A DNA stretch of 64,000 nucleotides, taken from Thiomicrorhabdus sp. (lineage in GTDB: Bacteria; Pseudomonadota; Gammaproteobacteria; Thiomicrospirales; Thiomicrospiraceae). The notes under the pieces are model-generated. The model saw only the letters and a list, made by a program, of their open reading frames with translations. It was not told the DNA's origin and made no database searches. Within the stretch, counting starts at the first letter, position 1. Each line of letters opens with the position of its first letter. This document shows, in pieces, positions 1,390-30,915 of this stretch. Position numbers and translations under genes: made by a program. Location of the stretch: positions 213,949-277,948 of the forward strand of contig NZ_OY782567.1 of the NCBI RefSeq assembly GCF_963677875.1. Reading direction: 5' to 3'.

Positions 1390-2130
1390 TCAAAACAGTC
1401 CGAAGAATCCGGAGTCTTTGGATTCTTCTTTTTCTTCATTCAGCAGAGTGTAAATGCCAGGGCGTTCGAGGTAGAGTTTCCAGCGCTGTATTGTTTTGGC
1501 GTCAAAGTTTTTGCCCGAGGTATTTTTCTGACCATTGACCAGATAGCCGTTGGTTTCGTTAAATTTATAAATCACCATCAGATCCGTGCGTTTCTTCAAG
1601 GGAAACGCAACTTTGATTTCATTGTCCAGTACCAGTGGAGAACCGCCGTTTTCAGGTGTGTACAGCAAGACCATATGCGGTTCCATGCTTGGAAGCTTGC
1701 GGACATACGCCAGGTTCAGAGAACGGACCGGAATGTTCAGATTCCGTAAGGCGGTGTATTTGGCAATCGAGTAATCTTCGCAATCTCCGGCGTCTTTCGC
1801 GAGAAATTCAAAAGGCGTTGCCCAGTAATCTTCTTTTCGCCAGAGAGCGAAATCCGAACTGTAGGGCACTTCGTTAAATTCCCGGTTGACGAAAATGACT
1901 TTCTCACCTTCTGATAATTTTGCTGCACGTTGTATGACGTTATTCCAGGTTTGCAGGCGTTTGGGGGCGAAATAGCCATAGGTTTTTTCCGAGTCACGGA
2001 TAACCTCGTCGGAAATCAGATTGGGTTTGCGTTCTTCACGATAAGATGAACAGCTGGAGAGAATTTGTGAACCGAGCAGAATCATGGTAAGAGCGCCGAA
2101 AAAACTACGGTTTTTTTTGAGCTGAAGCAT
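1390..2130 (-). CDS. LapG-like transglutaminase-fold cysteine protease, predicted lipoprotein
   Basis: 246 aa, bacterial transglutaminase-like cysteine proteinase family (the LapG group). The putative triad is visible as Cys117 in GDCEDY, His152 in PHMVLL and Asp169 in VLDN. The acidic residues flanking the cysteine match the calcium site known in LapG. Family role: a periplasmic protease that clips a giant surface adhesin when c-di-GMP is low, releasing the cell from a surface. The N-terminus has a lipobox (LSSC, Cys27), so this member is probably membrane-anchored, whereas classical LapG is soluble in the periplasm. Neither a LapD receptor nor a LapA-type adhesin is seen nearby. A diguanylate cyclase and a PilZ/GT2 pair elsewhere in the window fit a c-di-GMP network. 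Confidence 0.8.
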   Translation of the reverse strand: MLQLKKNRSFFGALTMILLGSQILSSCSSYREERKPNLISDEVIRDSEKTYGYFAPKRLQTWNNVIQRAAKLSEGEKVIFVNREFNEVPYSSDFALWRKEDYWATPFEFLAKDAGDCEDYSIAKYTALRNLNIPVRSLNLAYVRKLPSMEPHMVLLYTPENGGSPLVLDNEIKVAFPLKKRTDLMVIYKFNETNGYLVNGQKNTSGKNFDAKTIQRWKLYLERPGIYTLLNEEKEESKDSGFFGLF

Positions 2131-2286: not shown

Positions 2287-3267
2287 TCAGGTCAACTGTC
2301 TGGATGCGAAATGCGCGGCTCCCAGAAGCGGGGCTTCCGGATCGTCGACGATGCGCACCGGAATCTGTTCAATCGCGTGTTTCATTCGTCCTTTGTCCAG
2401 GAAGCCTTGCATGAATGACCCGCTTTCCAGAGCGGGTCGAATTTTAGGTGCAATGCCACCCGCGATATAGATGCCGCCGAGCGGCAGGGTTTTCAGGGCA
2501 AGGTTTCCTGCTTCCGCACCGTAGATTCGGCAGAAGAGTTGCATGGCTTGCTGACACAAGGAATCCTGTTGTTTTAGCGCAGCCTGACTGATGATCGCAT
2601 TGCGGTCGCCCTGTTGCATCAAGGCTTCGAGTGCGGGGGAGGCGGTAGCGAAATCAATGCTCTTCAGGAAATCGTAGAGGTTGCCGAACCCGTCGCCGGA
2701 GAGAATGCGTTCCATGCTGACATGACCGTTGAAACGGTTTCTTAAAAACGTCAGTAACTGGTCTTCGAGTTGGTTTTGCGGAGCAAATTCGCAGTGTCCG
2801 CCTTCTGTGGGCATGGCATGATGTTCGCGACCGTCAAAAAAGAGAATGGCTTCGCCAAGTCCGGTGCCTGCGGCGATGACGGCAAGATGGCCGGGTTTTT
2901 CCTGCGCCTGTCGGTTGAGTTCGTGGAAGCGATTTAAGCGCAGAATTCCGTAGGCTGCGGCTTCCAGGTCGTTCAGCAGGTGAACCCGAGGAATGCCCAG
3001 CTCTTCAGAAATTTCTGCTGCATCGATGATCCAGGGTAGGTTGGTTGTGATGCAGCGTTGCGATTTGATCGGACCGGCGATCCCGAAGGTGGCGGATTCG
3101 ATCTCTTTGTCGTCTCCAAGGAATTCAATCAATAGATCTTCAAATCGTGTGTGGCGTCCGCTTGGGAAAACCGCCTTGCGAATTTCTTCAAGTTGGGCGC
3201 CGTCGTTGTTATAAAGGGCAAGAACCGTTTTGGTTCCGCCAACGTCACCGGCAAGAATTCGAGCCAT
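2287..3267 (-). CDS. glk: Glucokinase (Glk family)
   Basis: 326 aa cytoplasmic enzyme that phosphorylates glucose with ATP to glucose-6-phosphate. The N-terminal phosphate-binding loop GDVGGTKT (7-14), the FGIAGPI segment and the LLNDLEAAAYG motif with the catalytic aspartate match the bacterial Glk family rather than the ROK kinases. The ATG at 3267 is chosen because GGAG lies a few bases before it; the frame stays open further upstream but only into the neighbouring gene. It lies 43 bases downstream of the phosphorylase-kinase-like gene on the same strand, which points to a two-gene operon in which glucose released or sensed by the first protein could be trapped by the second. Confidence 0.9.
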   Translation of the reverse strand: MARILAGDVGGTKTVLALYNNDGAQLEEIRKAVFPSGRHTRFEDLLIEFLGDDKEIESATFGIAGPIKSQRCITTNLPWIIDAAEISEELGIPRVHLLNDLEAAAYGILRLNRFHELNRQAQEKPGHLAVIAAGTGLGEAILFFDGREHHAMPTEGGHCEFAPQNQLEDQLLTFLRNRFNGHVSMERILSGDGFGNLYDFLKSIDFATASPALEALMQQGDRNAIISQAALKQQDSLCQQAMQLFCRIYGAEAGNLALKTLPLGGIYIAGGIAPKIRPALESGSFMQGFLDKGRMKHAIEQIPVRIVDDPEAPLLGAAHFASRQLT

Positions 3268-3310
3268 AATCATCTCCTTCGGAAAGGGCATCGGAAATCG
3301 GATTGAATGG

Positions 3311-6300
3311 TTAATTTTCTTTATGTAAAAAACAGAAAGCGTCCACGATGGCATTGGCGACTTCATGCGGGGCGGAATAATAAAATTCCTGCCATGCCTG
3401 TTCGCGTTTGCCTTCGTAAGCGATCATTTCATTTCCGGGTCCGGATAACCAGCGTAATCTGACGGCGTGGCCGAGTAGCACATCCAGAAACATTGAATCG
3501 TGGGTGTGCATGTCGGGGTTGGCCTGCATAATCAGGCCAAGCACCATAAGCGCTTCGTAATAGAGGCGACGCACTTCCGGCACCGGTGTTTTATTAAGCA
3601 GATGGTCGACTTTATCCTGGAAGAGTTTTTCGCCACGTGTCATATTGGCGCTAAGAGCGTGATCCAGTCGGCGTTTCGGATTCCATTGGTCGCCGATGAT
3701 CAAACCTGCGGTTTGATTGACAACATCCCAGACACCTTCATAGAACCCATCCGGGTAACGGCCGATACTGCCGTTGATCTTGCGCCATTCGTGCCAGTCT
3801 CCGGCCTGCCCTAGTTCGGGGTTCATGTTCGGTTCGAACTGGGGAAGTTTAAGGTCTTGATCACGGTGATCGAATTTCATCAATTCTTGCTGATACAGCT
3901 CTTCCTGAATGTCGGCGTAATGGACTAAAACATATTCAAGCGCTTGAGAGATTTCGTGCGGAGCCTGATTCATCAGCAGATCTAGCGCATCATCGGCGCT
4001 GCAATGTTCTTGTGCATGACGCACGTGACCGGCGAGAAGCTGTAGCAATTGTCCGGTACGGATTAGCGTCATGTTGTTGAGAAGTTCGGGGCGCGAACGG
4101 ATCATCAAGCCCAGATTCAGTACCAGTTCCTGCGTTAATATTTGCGCTCTCTGGTCATCCGGGTTGAATTCTTTGATGATTCTCAGAATTTCATCCGCAC
4201 CGGCCGGTTGTCTGAATGTCGAATGTTTGCTGTATTGGCGGGAAACACTCAAGGCGATTTTGCGTACTAGAATTTCGGTAACGGCACCTTCAAGGTTGAT
4301 ATCGTGTTTTTCCAGCCAGGCCGCTGCGCGACGCGTAATGTTCCAGTCATTGAATTCTCCCGCACGGAGATACACTTCTTCCATCAGTTTGCGCAGGTTG
4401 CATGGATGGCCGTCCGAATCTTTAAGGCCGGTATCAAATGCTTCGCCATGACGATTGAAGAGAATTTCCAGAAGGGCGAATTGATCCCGCAAACTTGTGA
4501 GGTGAATTAATTGCGCAATCAGTGCTTCGTCGCTCCACTGGCCGCAGGAGACAAGATCCAGTTGAGATTCACTTGTTTCCTCGATCGGATGCAGCACCAG
4601 ACAGGGAGTGCTGTGCATCAGTTGTTCGTTTTTGTTACCGGGCGCCTGTTCAAGGTAATGCAGACTGCGCTTTGCCGAGGTTGGTAAAAAATTTTTCAGC
4701 ATGCCCAGCTTGATGGGGATATCGTCAAACCGGCCGTGGCGGCATTCTTCCATAAACTCCAGAAGGGCGCGGCTGCCGCCTCGACTGAGCATGCCTTGAT
4801 TGACGACCATAACAACGATTGGCCGGCCAGGGAGGTTCCATTGCCGGTAAATATAGCCCATTTCCATCTTCAGACGTTTTACCAGCATCCGGTTGTCCTG
4901 AGTCAGGTAGAAGTCGTGACGGTTCAGGAATTGCGGCTGGAAGAGGTATCGATCGCCTTCATATTCGTAGACGCAAGAAGTGGTCAAGCCTCTCGGATTA
5001 CGGTGCGGGCGGCCGCTTAACTCCAGGCGGTCGCAACGTCCCAGCCATTCGAAGGCATCGGCAAGCGAACTGGCCTGTAGGACATGAATCGGTTTCAGCT
5101 CGTCAAGTGTCTGGGTGACCAGACCGTATTCGTGCAGTTTGTCGCGTACCTGATCGTCTTCTGCAATCAGGGAAAATTGAATCTGTCTACCTAGATTCCT
5201 ACCGATGCAGCTATGACGTCCGAGCGGATCGATATCCTCGACATCCAACAGACCGTCTTGGATCAATGCGCCCAGCGTGTACAGGCTTTGCGCCCAGACA
5301 AGCGGGATGTTTTCGTTGGGTTCGCGTATTTGCGAGCCGGGTTGCTCCCGTTCGGCCTCGATTTTGTCCAAGGGGACATAATAGAGTTCCGGAAGTAGTT
5401 TTTGGCCGTTTTGTTCCACCAGCAGGTTTTCGAGTTTATTGCGATATTCTGCGGCGGCTTCCTGCTGATCGGTAAAGAGATAGTGCAAGAGTAAATAGGT
5501 GAAAAACAGCGGCCATTCGCATTCGATATGCTCGAATTGTTTCATTTCTTCCGGTTCGTAGTGCAATCGGTTGTGGTCTTCGTTGGCCGCCTGATGTCCA
5601 TCTCGCAAGAAGCGTTTGCAGCCATAACGTCCGGATAGTTTGCCGATCACTTCGTCGAGGGTCTGTTCGACCAGGTCGGAATTCTCGACGGCAAAAGCCG
5701 GAAAGCCGACGACGCTGAGAGTCGCTGCATCAACTTCCTTGGAGAGTGATTCGGAAGGCAAGGCGGCTTCCAAAGTAATGCGTGCGCGCGCAATTTCATC
5801 CGGGATGACATGAATGACGCTGCTTTCCCCACCTTCAGAACCGAAGCAATTAAAACCATCCATTGCTTCCAGAGCCGCTTTGGCCATACCGACAGAGCTA
5901 CTGTTGACTTCTGCAATTCCGTGGTTGATCTTGTTGCCTCTTTCCCAGATGCCGTAATCGGGGGTGCGGTAGGCGCGGCCGATGTAGTGGACCAGGTTTT
6001 GGATAAATTGAACCTCGTCCATGGAAAAAACGATTCGTAACCCGGATGCGGTCATTTGCGCCAGCATTAAAAGATATAAACTGGTGGCATCCAGCTGCAG
6101 GTGTCCCCATTCATCATCTCCGACAACCGGGTCGCCGGTTGCTGTAGCGTATTTGGCATGCAAAGCTTCTAACGGGTCTTGAGAGTATTTGAAGGCCTCC
6201 ACTTTATGCGACTGTTTCATCATGGCGGTCAAAAGGCCGCGCATCAGTTTGACAACGCTCTGTTCCAGCAAAACGGCGCGTCCCTGCGTATCATCGACGC

Positions 6301-6499
6301 GGCGATAGGCTAATCCGAGACCCCAGGCGGCAAGAATGCTGTAGACGTTATCTCGAACCCAGGCATCGGTGTAGTCACCGTGGGCGGTAATGGCTGTGCT
6401 GGCGGGGAGCAGGCCGGTAATCGGATTTTGCCGAGCGAGAATGATGTCTGAAACTTGTTGGTAGTAGCGGTCTAATGTTGGCAAAACGTCATTGTTCAT
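3311..6499 (-). CDS. Phosphorylase kinase alpha/beta-like protein with GH15-type domain, 1062 aa
   Basis: A very large cytoplasmic protein with no signal peptide. The N-terminal ~400 residues look like a glycoside hydrolase 15-type (alpha/alpha)6 barrel of the phosphorylase kinase regulatory-subunit kind: DAWVRDNVYS (46-55), DDEWGHLQLDATSLYLL (128-144), WERGNK (185-190), EVNSSSVGMAKAALEA (197-212) and IECEWP (325-330). The C-terminal third also follows the eukaryotic subunit pattern, with RRLDHAL and PEVRRLYYEAL segments. These proteins are often auto-annotated as glucoamylase-like. Whether this one hydrolyses glucan, binds it, or regulates another enzyme cannot be told from sequence. The start at 6499 is preceded by GGAAA. 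It is followed closely by glk. No glycogen phosphorylase gene is in the window. Confidence 0.75.
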   Translation of the reverse strand: MNNDVLPTLDRYYQQVSDIILARQNPITGLLPASTAITAHGDYTDAWVRDNVYSILAAWGLGLAYRRVDDTQGRAVLLEQSVVKLMRGLLTAMMKQSHKVEAFKYSQDPLEALHAKYATATGDPVVGDDEWGHLQLDATSLYLLMLAQMTASGLRIVFSMDEVQFIQNLVHYIGRAYRTPDYGIWERGNKINHGIAEVNSSSVGMAKAALEAMDGFNCFGSEGGESSVIHVIPDEIARARITLEAALPSESLSKEVDAATLSVVGFPAFAVENSDLVEQTLDEVIGKLSGRYGCKRFLRDGHQAANEDHNRLHYEPEEMKQFEHIECEWPLFFTYLLLHYLFTDQQEAAAEYRNKLENLLVEQNGQKLLPELYYVPLDKIEAEREQPGSQIREPNENIPLVWAQSLYTLGALIQDGLLDVEDIDPLGRHSCIGRNLGRQIQFSLIAEDDQVRDKLHEYGLVTQTLDELKPIHVLQASSLADAFEWLGRCDRLELSGRPHRNPRGLTTSCVYEYEGDRYLFQPQFLNRHDFYLTQDNRMLVKRLKMEMGYIYRQWNLPGRPIVVMVVNQGMLSRGGSRALLEFMEECRHGRFDDIPIKLGMLKNFLPTSAKRSLHYLEQAPGNKNEQLMHSTPCLVLHPIEETSESQLDLVSCGQWSDEALIAQLIHLTSLRDQFALLEILFNRHGEAFDTGLKDSDGHPCNLRKLMEEVYLRAGEFNDWNITRRAAAWLEKHDINLEGAVTEILVRKIALSVSRQYSKHSTFRQPAGADEILRIIKEFNPDDQRAQILTQELVLNLGLMIRSRPELLNNMTLIRTGQLLQLLAGHVRHAQEHCSADDALDLLMNQAPHEISQALEYVLVHYADIQEELYQQELMKFDHRDQDLKLPQFEPNMNPELGQAGDWHEWRKINGSIGRYPDGFYEGVWDVVNQTAGLIIGDQWNPKRRLDHALSANMTRGEKLFQDKVDHLLNKTPVPEVRRLYYEALMVLGLIMQANPDMHTHDSMFLDVLLGHAVRLRWLSGPGNEMIAYEGKREQAWQEFYYSAPHEVANAIVDAFCFLHKEN

Positions 6500-7106: not shown

Positions 7107-7461
7107 TGGTGGAGCTGGGGGGAGTCGAACCCCCGTCCGCAAAGCCGCCATCTAAAACTCTACATGCTTATTTGGTCTATTGCTTTAACTTGAGTGCTGC
7201 CCGACCAGCAGGGATCACACTAAGCGAGTTTGTAAAGTTTGATGTCGGCTACCCAAACACGCAGCAGACACGATCCTCTGTAAGTCGATACAGACTAGGG
7301 GCCAGAGGCAACTGGCCTAGCCTGCACTAGCTGGATTAAGCAGCTAGAGCGTAGTTATCGTCGTTTGCAACTATAACAAAATGAACTAAGATTTACGTGC
7401 ATCGTCCAGGCACGACATGCATTTTAAACTTTGAACTCCCCGTCGAAACCAGTACAGCCCC
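7107..7461 (-). ncRNA. ssrA: tmRNA (transfer-messenger RNA)
   Basis: On the reverse strand the RNA starts GGGGCTGTACTGG near 7461 and ends with the T-loop and acceptor arm CAGCTCCACCA at 7107, giving about 355 nt. The first and last segments pair as the tRNA-like acceptor stem. The internal message reads GCA AAC GAC GAT AAC TAC GCT CTA GCT GCT TAA, coding the tag ANDDNYALAA, which is close to the standard proteobacterial tag. It rescues ribosomes stalled on broken mRNA and marks the product for proteolysis, together with SmpB, whose gene is about 1.8 kb away. Confidence 0.97.
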
Positions 7462-7706: not shown

Positions 7707-9095
7707 ATGGAGAATTGGACGGGAGGGGAAACTGGTTTGCAGGAACGGGTTTCCAATTTGGTACTGAATTTTATTATCGTATTAAGCGTGCCGCTATTTA
7801 CTCTGTTGGCGTTTTATCACTTCATGCACTCCCAGCTCGGCTTTATGGCGTTTTTCATCGCTGTGGCGGCAGGTTTGGCAGCGGTTTATTTGCAGCTGAG
7901 GAAAGAACAGCCGGTATTTCAGATGGTGCAAATCTCTCTGGGGATTCTGTTTGCAGTTTACTTCGTTACGGTTGCCCAGACCGACATGCATGCCGGTGCG
8001 CTGTATTGGGCGTTTATTCTGCCGTTGATTATTGTCATTCTTACTCCGGTTTTCTGGACACTGGTTTGGTTAGGACTTTTGCTTTTCGGCATTGTAATGC
8101 CATTCATTCTGTCGAGTCTAGGCAGCGGTTCCCGTTTTGATTTTGAAGTGATTGCCTTTTTTGTGATCACCAGTGCCGTTATTGCCTTGCTGACGTATTA
8201 CATCAAAGAATTGTTTATTGAATCGCAGCTTTCTCTGACGCGCAGTAAGCAGGCATTGGAGATGAATAAGCGAATGATCGATCAGAAAATTCCAATCGTC
8301 CGGCTGGATTTCGATTGCAGTATTCAAAAACCGAATCAGGCGTTTTGTGAGTTGACCGGCTTTTCCGAGAAGGAACTGACCGGGAAAAGCTTCACTTTTT
8401 TAAAGCTGGCCGAGTTGGGTGACCTTTCGCAGAATCACGATTTTATACTCGATTTGTGCGACGGAAATTGGCATGGTGAACTTTACGGTCATAAGAAAAA
8501 CGGGCAGGAGTATTGGATTAAGGCAAGTTTGAAAGAGTCATTCGATGCCCAGTTCAAAAAAGACGGCATGTTGATGCTGTGTGAAGATGTCACCGATCAT
8601 CAATTGCTTGAACGTCAGGCGAATTATGATCAGCTTACCGGCGTTTATAATCGTCGCATGTTTGATGAATTGACCCGGCGGGCGATTCTGGATTTTCAGC
8701 GCTATCGTGAGCCGATCTGCCTCTTGATTACCGATATTGATCACTTCAAACGGGTGAATGATGAGTTCGGACACCACTTTGGCGATGAAATCCTAAAAGG
8801 AATGGCCAGTGTTCTGTCAACCAATTTGCGTAAAACGGATACGGTTGCGCGCTGGGGTGGTGAAGAATTTGCCGTTCTGCTGCCCAAGGCAGATGTGCAT
8901 CAGGCGCATGAAATTGCCGATAAGTTACGACGAATGATTGAAAAAGAGAAATTTTACGAAGGGTTTCATATTACCGCGAGTTTTGGCGTGACCGAGTTGA
9001 GAATCGATGAAACGGCAGATGACTGGTTCCGCAGAGCGGACAGTGCCTTATACGATGCCAAGGCAAGCGGCCGTAACCGGGTGTGTTTTGCTTAG
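7707..9095 (+). CDS. Membrane diguanylate cyclase with PAS and GGDEF domains
   Basis: 462 aa. Residues about 18-170 hold five or six membrane helices, about 190-300 form a PAS-like sensor domain (ending CEDVTDHQLLERQANYDQLTG), and about 305-460 form a GGDEF domain. The active motif is intact (GGEEF, 384-388). An RxxD product-inhibition site (RKTD, 375-378) lies five residues before it. It should therefore make c-di-GMP from two GTP with feedback inhibition. The signal sensed by the membrane part is unknown. It sits between tmRNA and smpB with its own start (ATG 7707, preceded by AAGAAGAG). A hairpin at 9115-9132 without a T-run follows the gene. Confidence 0.93.
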   Translation: MENWTGGETGLQERVSNLVLNFIIVLSVPLFTLLAFYHFMHSQLGFMAFFIAVAAGLAAVYLQLRKEQPVFQMVQISLGILFAVYFVTVAQTDMHAGALYWAFILPLIIVILTPVFWTLVWLGLLLFGIVMPFILSSLGSGSRFDFEVIAFFVITSAVIALLTYYIKELFIESQLSLTRSKQALEMNKRMIDQKIPIVRLDFDCSIQKPNQAFCELTGFSEKELTGKSFTFLKLAELGDLSQNHDFILDLCDGNWHGELYGHKKNGQEYWIKASLKESFDAQFKKDGMLMLCEDVTDHQLLERQANYDQLTGVYNRRMFDELTRRAILDFQRYREPICLLITDIDHFKRVNDEFGHHFGDEILKGMASVLSTNLRKTDTVARWGGEEFAVLLPKADVHQAHEIADKLRRMIEKEKFYEGFHITASFGVTELRIDETADDWFRRADSALYDAKASGRNRVCFA

Positions 9096-30000: not shown

Positions 30001-30915
30001 GTGAATAAAGCAAATGGATTTCATATCGGTATTGATCTGGGGGGAACGAAGATTGAAATTATCGCCCTGAATCAAGAGGGAGCTGCCGTTTATCGAACGC
30101 GGGTTCCGACACCGAAAGGCGATTATCCGGCAACCGTTGCTGCGATTGTGTCTCTGGTTCGCCAATGCGAAGCTGTTTTAAATGCGGGTGGAACCCTTGG
30201 CATCGGTATTCCCGGAGCGGTTTCCCGAAAAACCGGACGCATAAAAAATGCGAATTCAACCTGGCTGATCGGAGAAGATTTGCAGGCCGATCTGGAAAAG
30301 GCTCTCGAACGTCCGGTTGCGTTGGAAAACGATGCGAATTGTCTGGTTCTTTCCGAAGCGGTTGACGGGGCAGCAGCAGGGGTGCGAAGTGTTTTTGGCG
30401 TGATTATCGGTACCGGCTGCGGAGGCGGAATTGTGTTTGACGGACAGATCGTGGGGGGAGTGAATTCAATTGGAGGAGAATGGGGGCATAACCCTTTGCC
30501 CTGGTCCTGTGACGATCGTCAGTTGTCGTGCTACTGCGGTTTAAGTGGCTGTAACGAAACCTTTCTTTCCGGCAGTGGCCTGGAGCGGCATTATCAAGCC
30601 CGAAGTGGGCGTTTCTTGACGGCGATAGAGATTGAAACAGCTGCATCGACGGGTGATGAAACGGCGCAGGGCTTGCTGGACGATTATGTTATCTGGCTGG
30701 CTAAAGGGCTGGCTGCAGTGATTAACGTTGTCGATCCGGATGTGATTGTGTTGGGCGGCGGCATGTCCAATTTTTCCCGCCTGTATACAGACGTTCCCAA
30801 TATCTGGCAGCAGTGGGTATTCAGTGATCAGGTGGATACCCGACTGGTGGCGCCGAAGTTCGGTGATTCCAGTGGTGTCAGGGGCGCGGCCTGGTTAGGT
30901 AAGTCGACACTCTGA
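30001..30915 (+). CDS. ROK family sugar kinase (fructokinase / N-acetylglucosamine kinase-like)
   Basis: 304 aa. The ATP-binding GIDLGGTKIE (10-19), catalytic Asp111 in LENDANC, EWGHNPL (160-166) and the zinc site CYCGLSGCNE (Cys177, 179, 184 with His163) define an active ROK kinase. Closest in pattern to Mak/NagK-type hexose kinases; the exact sugar cannot be fixed. The start is a GTG at 30001 with a poor ribosome site, so expression may rely on coupling to the upstream genes. Together with glk it gives the strain at least two hexose kinases. Confidence 0.88.
   Translation: MNKANGFHIGIDLGGTKIEIIALNQEGAAVYRTRVPTPKGDYPATVAAIVSLVRQCEAVLNAGGTLGIGIPGAVSRKTGRIKNANSTWLIGEDLQADLEKALERPVALENDANCLVLSEAVDGAAAGVRSVFGVIIGTGCGGGIVFDGQIVGGVNSIGGEWGHNPLPWSCDDRQLSCYCGLSGCNETFLSGSGLERHYQARSGRFLTAIEIETAASTGDETAQGLLDDYVIWLAKGLAAVINVVDPDVIVLGGGMSNFSRLYTDVPNIWQQWVFSDQVDTRLVAPKFGDSSGVRGAAWLGKSTL

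Follow-up and report, generated by a model that had tools for sequence, protein, structure and literature searches.

A bacterial relative of the phosphorylase kinase alpha and beta subunits encoded beside glucokinase: a candidate regulated glucan hydrolase

Introduction

What does a protein built like the regulatory subunits of eukaryotic phosphorylase kinase (PhK) do in a bacterium, where its gene lies directly before one for glucokinase? We examined such a pair in Thiomicrorhabdus sp., within a stretch of 64,000 nucleotides (NZ_OY782567.1, positions 213,949 to 277,948 of the forward strand) that we call the window and whose numbering we use throughout. The homology of the first domain (D1) of PhK alpha and beta to glucoamylase is already known, and was reportedly described by Pallen in 2003, as cited in PMC10978961. 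The physiological significance of the domain requires further investigation, according to the available excerpts of PMC10978961.

Results

Phk is related to PhK alpha and beta from end to end

The gene, here called phk, is an open reading frame of 1,062 codons starting with ATG and is present as a single copy in the 2.58 Mb source genome. Its main features are as follows.

3311..6499, minus strand: phk, PhK alpha/beta-like protein, 1062 aa (Pfam, phmmer against PDB, profile search, Foldseek)
5210..6499, minus strand: D1, GH15/glucoamylase-like, residues 1-430 (Pfam and identity comparisons; the domain limit is our choice)
3317..4012, minus strand: KPBB_C, the PhK C-terminal domain, residues 830-1061 (Pfam)

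A first, sequence-only reading had proposed that Phk matches the PhK regulatory subunits over nearly its full length, including a C-terminal region with the motifs RRLDHAL and PEVRRLYYEAL, rather than in the GH15 part alone. The searches bear this out. Pfam placed Glyco_hydro_15 at residues 9-816 (285 bits, cut-off 22) and KPBB_C (PF19292) at residues 830-1061 (255 bits, E 5.6e-76, cut-off 27); both motifs lie within the KPBB_C match, and the C-terminal part of Phk is therefore PhK-like beyond the GH15 barrel. A phmmer search of PDB returned PHKA (750 bits) and PHKB (559 bits) as its sole distinct sequences at E<=1, and both also matched the last fifth of Phk separately. With a profile of 11 Phk sequences, the scores were 991 bits for PHKA and 824 bits for PHKB, and nothing else in PDB appeared at E<=10.

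The predicted fold agrees. An AlphaFold2 model from a 51-row alignment (mean pLDDT 82.5, pTM 0.77) had PhK chains as its top eight Foldseek matches (TMq 0.67-0.72 over 1074-1106 columns), which amounts to a full-length PhK alpha/beta fold. The rmsd to these eight chains was 13.5-14.5 A; the domain arrangement therefore differs from that of PhK or is poorly placed in the model. Values of pLDDT fell below 50 at residues 35-42, 182-196, 298-307, 322-327, and 623-631, of which the first four stretches are active-site loops. Ranked below the PhK chains were GH15 enzymes, including glucoamylases (PDB 5z3a and 6frv, TMt 0.72 and 0.50 to the predicted model) that share the fold of D1 and align over a D1-sized part only; we take these glucoamylases to lack the D2-D5/KPBB_C body of PhK. 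With a GH15-like D1 and KPBB_C in one chain, Phk is an end-to-end relative of the PhK alpha/beta regulatory subunits. A GH15-only reading is ruled out by the KPBB_C match and the full-length PhK fold, and identity with GH15 trehalase (TreH1, NF041084) was rejected at 21 bits against a cut-off of 820.

Like PHKA (PDB 8jfk, 8z5m), to which it is homologous over nearly the full length, Phk has both catalytic glutamates; its D1 is 61-62% identical to that of human PHKA, and the PHKA stretches ~627-756 and 963-1048 were left unaligned by phmmer. PHKB has the same architecture by sequence and predicted fold, with 47% identity in D1. PHKA works together with a gamma kinase and calmodulin (excerpts of PMC10978961). 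Among bacteria, D1 had a mean identity of 71% to 26 methanotroph homologues and 71% to 10 cyanobacterial homologues; in the comparison with the methanotrophs, four later segments reached 22 to 41%.

The predicted GH15 active site is complete and largely invariant

Three codons of D1 mark the positions that matter most for catalysis by GH15 enzymes.

6371..6373, minus strand: Tyr43, in the GH15 motif DYxxxWxRD; Gln in human PHKA and PHKB (alignments)
5942..5944, minus strand: Glu186, GH15 general acid position (PHKA Glu185) (alignments)
5387..5389, minus strand: Glu371, GH15 general base position (PHKA Glu371; Lys in PHKB) (alignments)

We compared 95 proteins, namely Phk and the products of 94 distinct loci. 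The two catalytic glutamates, whose inspection had been proposed from the sequence, are present and invariant: E186 and E371 correspond in the alignment to PHKA Glu185 and Glu371, which the available text of PMC10978961 names as catalytic. The Tyr and Arg-Asp of the -1 subsite are invariant as well (Y43, R49, D50), as are H40, G41, A46, W47, W131, H133, Q135, W185, R187, K295, R296, D300, H302, Q303, E326, E328, P370, W402, and Q404. Position 299 is variable (R 48, L 45, W 2), and L368, L369, and Y373 have one or two exceptions each.

A profile-profile alignment with 10 GH15 rows (probability 90%, E 1.6e-7) matched Y43, R49-D50, E186, and E371 to the GH15 motifs DYRFCWLRD, GIWE, and LLAE, so D1 shares its catalytic residues with GH15 proteins. 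The comparison set consisted of 11 loci (L139-L149) out of 29 matches, from which L142 was dropped as short; L147 was kept although its longest frame is probably another gene, and it is the only one of the 10 rows without DYxxxWxRD. A PDB search using one GH15 protein gave repeat-protein artefacts only. Tyr43 presumably occupies the position of glucoamylase Tyr48. In fungal glucoamylase, Tyr48 supports the catalytic base and water. Others have mutated this residue, as the PDB title "Glycosidase Y48F" among the Foldseek matches indicates.

Judged from a single alpha and a single beta sequence, the human subunits depart from this pattern. PHKA keeps 115 and PHKB 93 of the 130 comparable D1 positions that are invariant in 51 bacterial proteins. 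In PHKA, a deletion of six residues removes H40 and G41 and Gln replaces Y43, whereas Phk keeps all three; PHKB has Lys for the base Glu371, Gln for Arg49, and Gln for Tyr43. According to excerpts of PMC10978961, neither human PhK nor its alpha-gamma-delta subcomplex acts detectably on maltose, isomaltose, or glycogen. The loop deletion and the Gln for Y43, seen in single alpha and beta sequences, offer a possible reason why PHKA would be inactive despite having both glutamates.

Linkage of phk to glk is characteristic of one clade

Downstream of phk, on the same strand, are the following.

2287..3267, minus strand: glk (glkA type), ATP glucokinase, 326 aa (Pfam, NCBIfam; start read from sequence)
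3274..3279, minus strand: AAGGAG, likely ribosome binding site of glk (read directly)

The listed glk frame (2287-3366) overlaps phk. The likely start is the ATG at 3267-3265, after the Shine-Dalgarno-like AAGGAG, which gives 326 aa and a gap of 43 bases from the phk stop, the same distance as first reported. Glk matched Glucokinase (PF02685) at 337 bits in Pfam, and it is of the type common to methanotroph ATP-glucokinases (Methylotuvimicrobium alcaliphilum, Methylomonas sp. 12). As the sequence-only reading had stated for a kinase domain and glycogen phosphorylase, none of the eight window proteins scanned near phk had a kinase domain or corresponded to calmodulin or glgP; the one glgP match of the source genome is on a different contig. 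A further frame in the window, 30001-30915 (plus strand), encodes a weakly glucokinase-like kinase, perhaps ROK (PF02685 at 21 bits; G000:C6:243982-244551), and many relatives have a similar weak second match.

Of 398 genomes sampled from the phylum, 8 carried PF19292, and of 58 genomes in another sample, 11 encoded a Phk relative; each count includes the source genome. Among 146 cyanobacterial genomes, 33 had PF19292 above the cut-off and 34 at E<=0.001. A scan of a genome collection found at least 532 stretches encoding a Phk relative, 80 of which were kept. We called open reading frames at 97 phk loci; because L038-L040 duplicate L027, L030, and L035, 94 loci are distinct.

Methylococcales-type (43), Thiomicrospiraceae (10), and Milos (1) loci make up a set of 54, in 50 of which phk is linked to glk, as the next gene in 49 and the next but one in L063. 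The exceptions are L048, L065, L080, and L116; in L065, ~0.7 kb of DNA follows phk, and the one strong glucokinase match of the genome lies away from the phk locus. None of the 33 cyanobacterial loci (a few of which, e.g., L081, L098, and L103, end <1 kb after phk) and none of the seven other proteobacterial loci were linked to glk. The expected persistence of the linkage in relatives thus holds within one clade and fails outside it.

In 52 of 53 loci, a set that includes the three duplicates, the gap between the phk stop and the glk start ranged from -17 to +60 bases (median 10; -4 in eight), with glk starts assigned from a motif. Quick, midpoint-rooted trees of phk (51 rows) and glkA (57 glk rows) both separated methanotrophs from Thiomicrospiraceae plus Milos, with support of 99 and 100 for phk and 88 and 83 for glk; given this agreement, the pair was inherited or moved together. 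In 7 of the 10 proteobacterial phk genomes searched, the sole PF02685 match sits at the phk locus by its coordinates, Methylomonas fluvii and Methylotuvimicrobium buryatense being two examples; in Methylobacter tundripaludum, another strong match accompanies the phk-linked one. A phage or plasmid origin of phk was rejected: none of 38 viral candidate stretches encoded a Phk relative, no viral fold resembled Phk at E<=0.001, and a plasmid collection gave two matches, both partial and at ~25% identity.

Glycogen genes accompany phk, and a second glucokinase gene is usually missing

Within 37 genomes of the family, all 11 that carry phk have glgA and glgP, compared to 16 of 26 that do not (one-sided Fisher 0.015, kinship ignored, several phk-negative genomes being incomplete). 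We inspected 16 glycogen operons, namely those of every phk-positive genome (11) and of 5 among the 16 phk-negative ones. The order is glk(B)-glgC-GH57-malQ-glgB-glgA-glgP, glgP being placed by position, and malQ is retained in all 16. In the glk tree, a branch with 99% SH-aLRT sets the operon glucokinase gene, glkB, apart from phk-linked glkA (seven glkB rows, some with long branches). Of the 16 phk-negative, glycogen-positive genomes, 15 have glkB at a distance of 7-10 kb from glgA (the exception, G401, is in 520 contigs), whereas an intact copy is near glgA in 2 of the 11 phk-positive genomes and absent in 9 (Fisher p 1e-4, kinship ignored). G411 has a weak C-terminal glkB piece and G405 has scattered pieces in three frames; the decayed glucokinase pieces of the G405 glycogen locus (L135:14012-14806) are at the position of the operon glk in phk-negative relatives. 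The fewest changes on the tree are four for phk and three for glkB. On a 16-genome tree, three independent pairs on supported branches compare phk with glkB loss, which is not significant; on average, 1.7 go in the same direction, 0 go against, and 1.3 show no difference. Because intact glkB is rare near glgA in phk-positive genomes, phk-glkA appears to have replaced glkB, possibly on more than one occasion.

G405, with 8% contamination, required a closer look. The nuoM gene on its phk contig is 91% identical to that of G415, 88-89% to G406, G412, and G428, and 81% to G430, i.e., closest to G405's own clade, so that we rejected contamination as the source of phk. The glkA of G405 groups with that of G430 in the tree. 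Given that nuoM clusters with its own clade, a joint gain of phk-glkA appears more likely than contamination.

In three of the seven other proteobacterial loci, phk is beside or near glycogen genes (glgB, glgX-like; malQ also in one): it lies within a malQ-glgX-glgB run in L022, read from translations and clustering, and before glgB and a glgX-like gene in L024 and L025. Among the subset of genes scanned, no glycogen neighbour was recognised in L020, L021, L023, and L026. The one cyanobacterial neighbour cluster scanned is an MgtE transporter.

Discussion

A proposed regulated glucan hydrolase and its alternatives

We think there is an even chance that Phk is a regulated intracellular alpha-glucan exo-hydrolase that hands glucose to Glk. 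The basis is the observed homology, the predicted fold, gene order, matching trees, invariant catalytic positions, and the complementary pattern of the second glucokinase; from these we infer hydrolysis, substrate, location, co-transcription, and C-terminal control. The pair would be a co-transcribed two-gene operon of glycogen catabolism. Phk would be a cytoplasmic, alpha-glucan-binding GH15 protein with a whole PhK alpha/beta body, which most likely removes glucose one unit at a time from the non-reducing termini of glycogen or maltodextrins; Glu186 would be the acid and Glu371 the base, and Tyr43 would assist. The co-encoded Glk would convert the released glucose to glucose 6-phosphate, and the body from D2 to KPBB_C probably builds the assembly, governs access to the site, or does both. 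Of the glycogen-to-glucose-6-phosphate control unit suggested at the outset, the association is well supported; control and hydrolysis are putative.

According to the available excerpts of PMC6406325, the ATP-Glk from Methylomonas sp. 12, with a glucose Km of 0.08 mM, is regarded as a scavenger of glucose derived from glycogen. Excerpts of PMC8062543 cite, from earlier work, a glk mutant of M. alcaliphilum with 50 times less glycogen; judging from its relative M. buryatense, the mutated gene is probably phk-linked. The same excerpts ascribe free glucose to MalQ with GlgP and GlgX, and Phk is a further candidate source.

Several observations count against the hydrolase model. Human PhK has no detectable glucan-cleaving activity though both glutamates are present, and the strong conservation of D1 could serve binding alone. 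The lack of glk at all cyanobacterial loci counts against it, as do the four other proteobacterial loci without a recognised glycogen gene beside phk in the subset scanned, and the phk/glkB pattern stems from few events. The presence of malQ in all 16 operons and of glgP in every one of the 11 phk-positive genomes provides an alternative route to free glucose.

The main rival, which we consider possible though less probable, is a non-hydrolytic glucan sensor or scaffold, with D1 as the binding site for glucan ends or glucose and the C-terminal body as the regulator of Glk or glycogen enzymes, in parallel with the regulation of PhK gamma by alpha and beta. The full PhK architecture of Phk, the tight gene coupling of phk to glk, and the lack of glucoamylase activity in human PHKA with both glutamates (excerpts of PMC10978961) are all in its favour. 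However, bacterial D1 retains the Tyr43/HG loop absent from human PHKA and PHKB, which fits retained catalysis; moreover, no partner kinase was among the eight nearby proteins scanned, and recombinant methanotroph Glk works alone in vitro (excerpts of PMC6406325).

Hydrolysis of another alpha-glucoside, such as trehalose, that still feeds Glk is improbable. The sole NCBIfam match of Phk is a weak one to a GH15 trehalase, and glk mutants of one methanotroph have raised trehalose along with less glycogen; however, the match is far under the trehalase cut-off, the excerpts of PMC8062543 that describe these mutants trace trehalose to glycogen, and three of the seven other proteobacterial loci have glycogen-gene neighbours. 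Equally unlikely is that glk is an old neighbour kept by drift or joint transfer with no shared pathway, as the confinement of the linkage to a single clade, with none among the 40 other loci, might suggest, given that the linkage persists at ~50% Phk identity between orders while flanking genes changed, that gaps remain short, and that intact glkB is missing in 9 of 11 phk-glkA genomes.

Implications for PhK and novelty

If the hydrolase reading is right, the bacterial family may be the working, regulated glucan hydrolase that passes its product to a partner Glk, and PhK alpha and beta may be its descendants or sisters, which lost the Tyr43 loop (both) and the base Glu (beta) and came to act purely as sensors for a protein kinase. 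We put this joint reading forward tentatively and would sooner doubt it than rely on it; if true, the phk-glk pair shows the original job of the PhK glucoamylase domain. Because the long PHKA and PHKB branches meet each other in a D1 tree (also quick and midpoint-rooted) with no outgroup, we claim no direction of transfer between bacteria and eukaryotes. A single-chain bacterial homologue with a complete predicted site and a glk partner makes the role of the domain testable by a simple assay.

Among the matches listed from the open-licence literature, none described a bacterial PhK alpha/beta protein or an operon of it with glk, and we came across no assay of a bacterial member. In the available parts of a 2024 review of prokaryotic alpha-glucan enzymes (PMC11046441), "phosphorylase kinase" is absent and GH15 is mentioned for archaea only. 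The excerpts of PMC6406325 and PMC8062543 mention no PhK-like neighbour of glk, glycoside hydrolase, or glucoamylase, and those of PMC8062543 no glucosidase either. The novelty of the protein and its operon is provisional because the literature covered is open-licence, with subscription papers outside it.

Other features of the neighbourhood

A tmRNA gene (ssrA, 7107-7461, minus strand, tag ANDDNYALAA) lies ~0.6 kb upstream of phk, and in G405 a tRNA-Met gene lies ~380 bases upstream (L030:11625-11701). At the remaining nine of the 11 family loci, ARAGORN found no RNA gene within 1 kb of phk, which makes an RNA-gene insertion site there at most a hint. Beyond the tmRNA is a gene for a PAS-GGDEF diguanylate cyclase (7707-9095, plus strand), and downstream of glk is one for a LapG-like C93 cysteine protease (1390-2130, minus strand; 152 bits against the NCBIfam LapG cut-off of 320). 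At L028, L029, and L031, phk is preceded by a gene read by eye as glutamine-synthetase-like (453 aa) and by more genes in the same direction; the upstream context therefore varies within the genus. Outside the window, a nuoM-like gene of the source genome (G000:C6:173735-175247) is in two overlapping frames, and it is in a single frame in the eight relatives searched, so the split is a frameshift or an assembly error.
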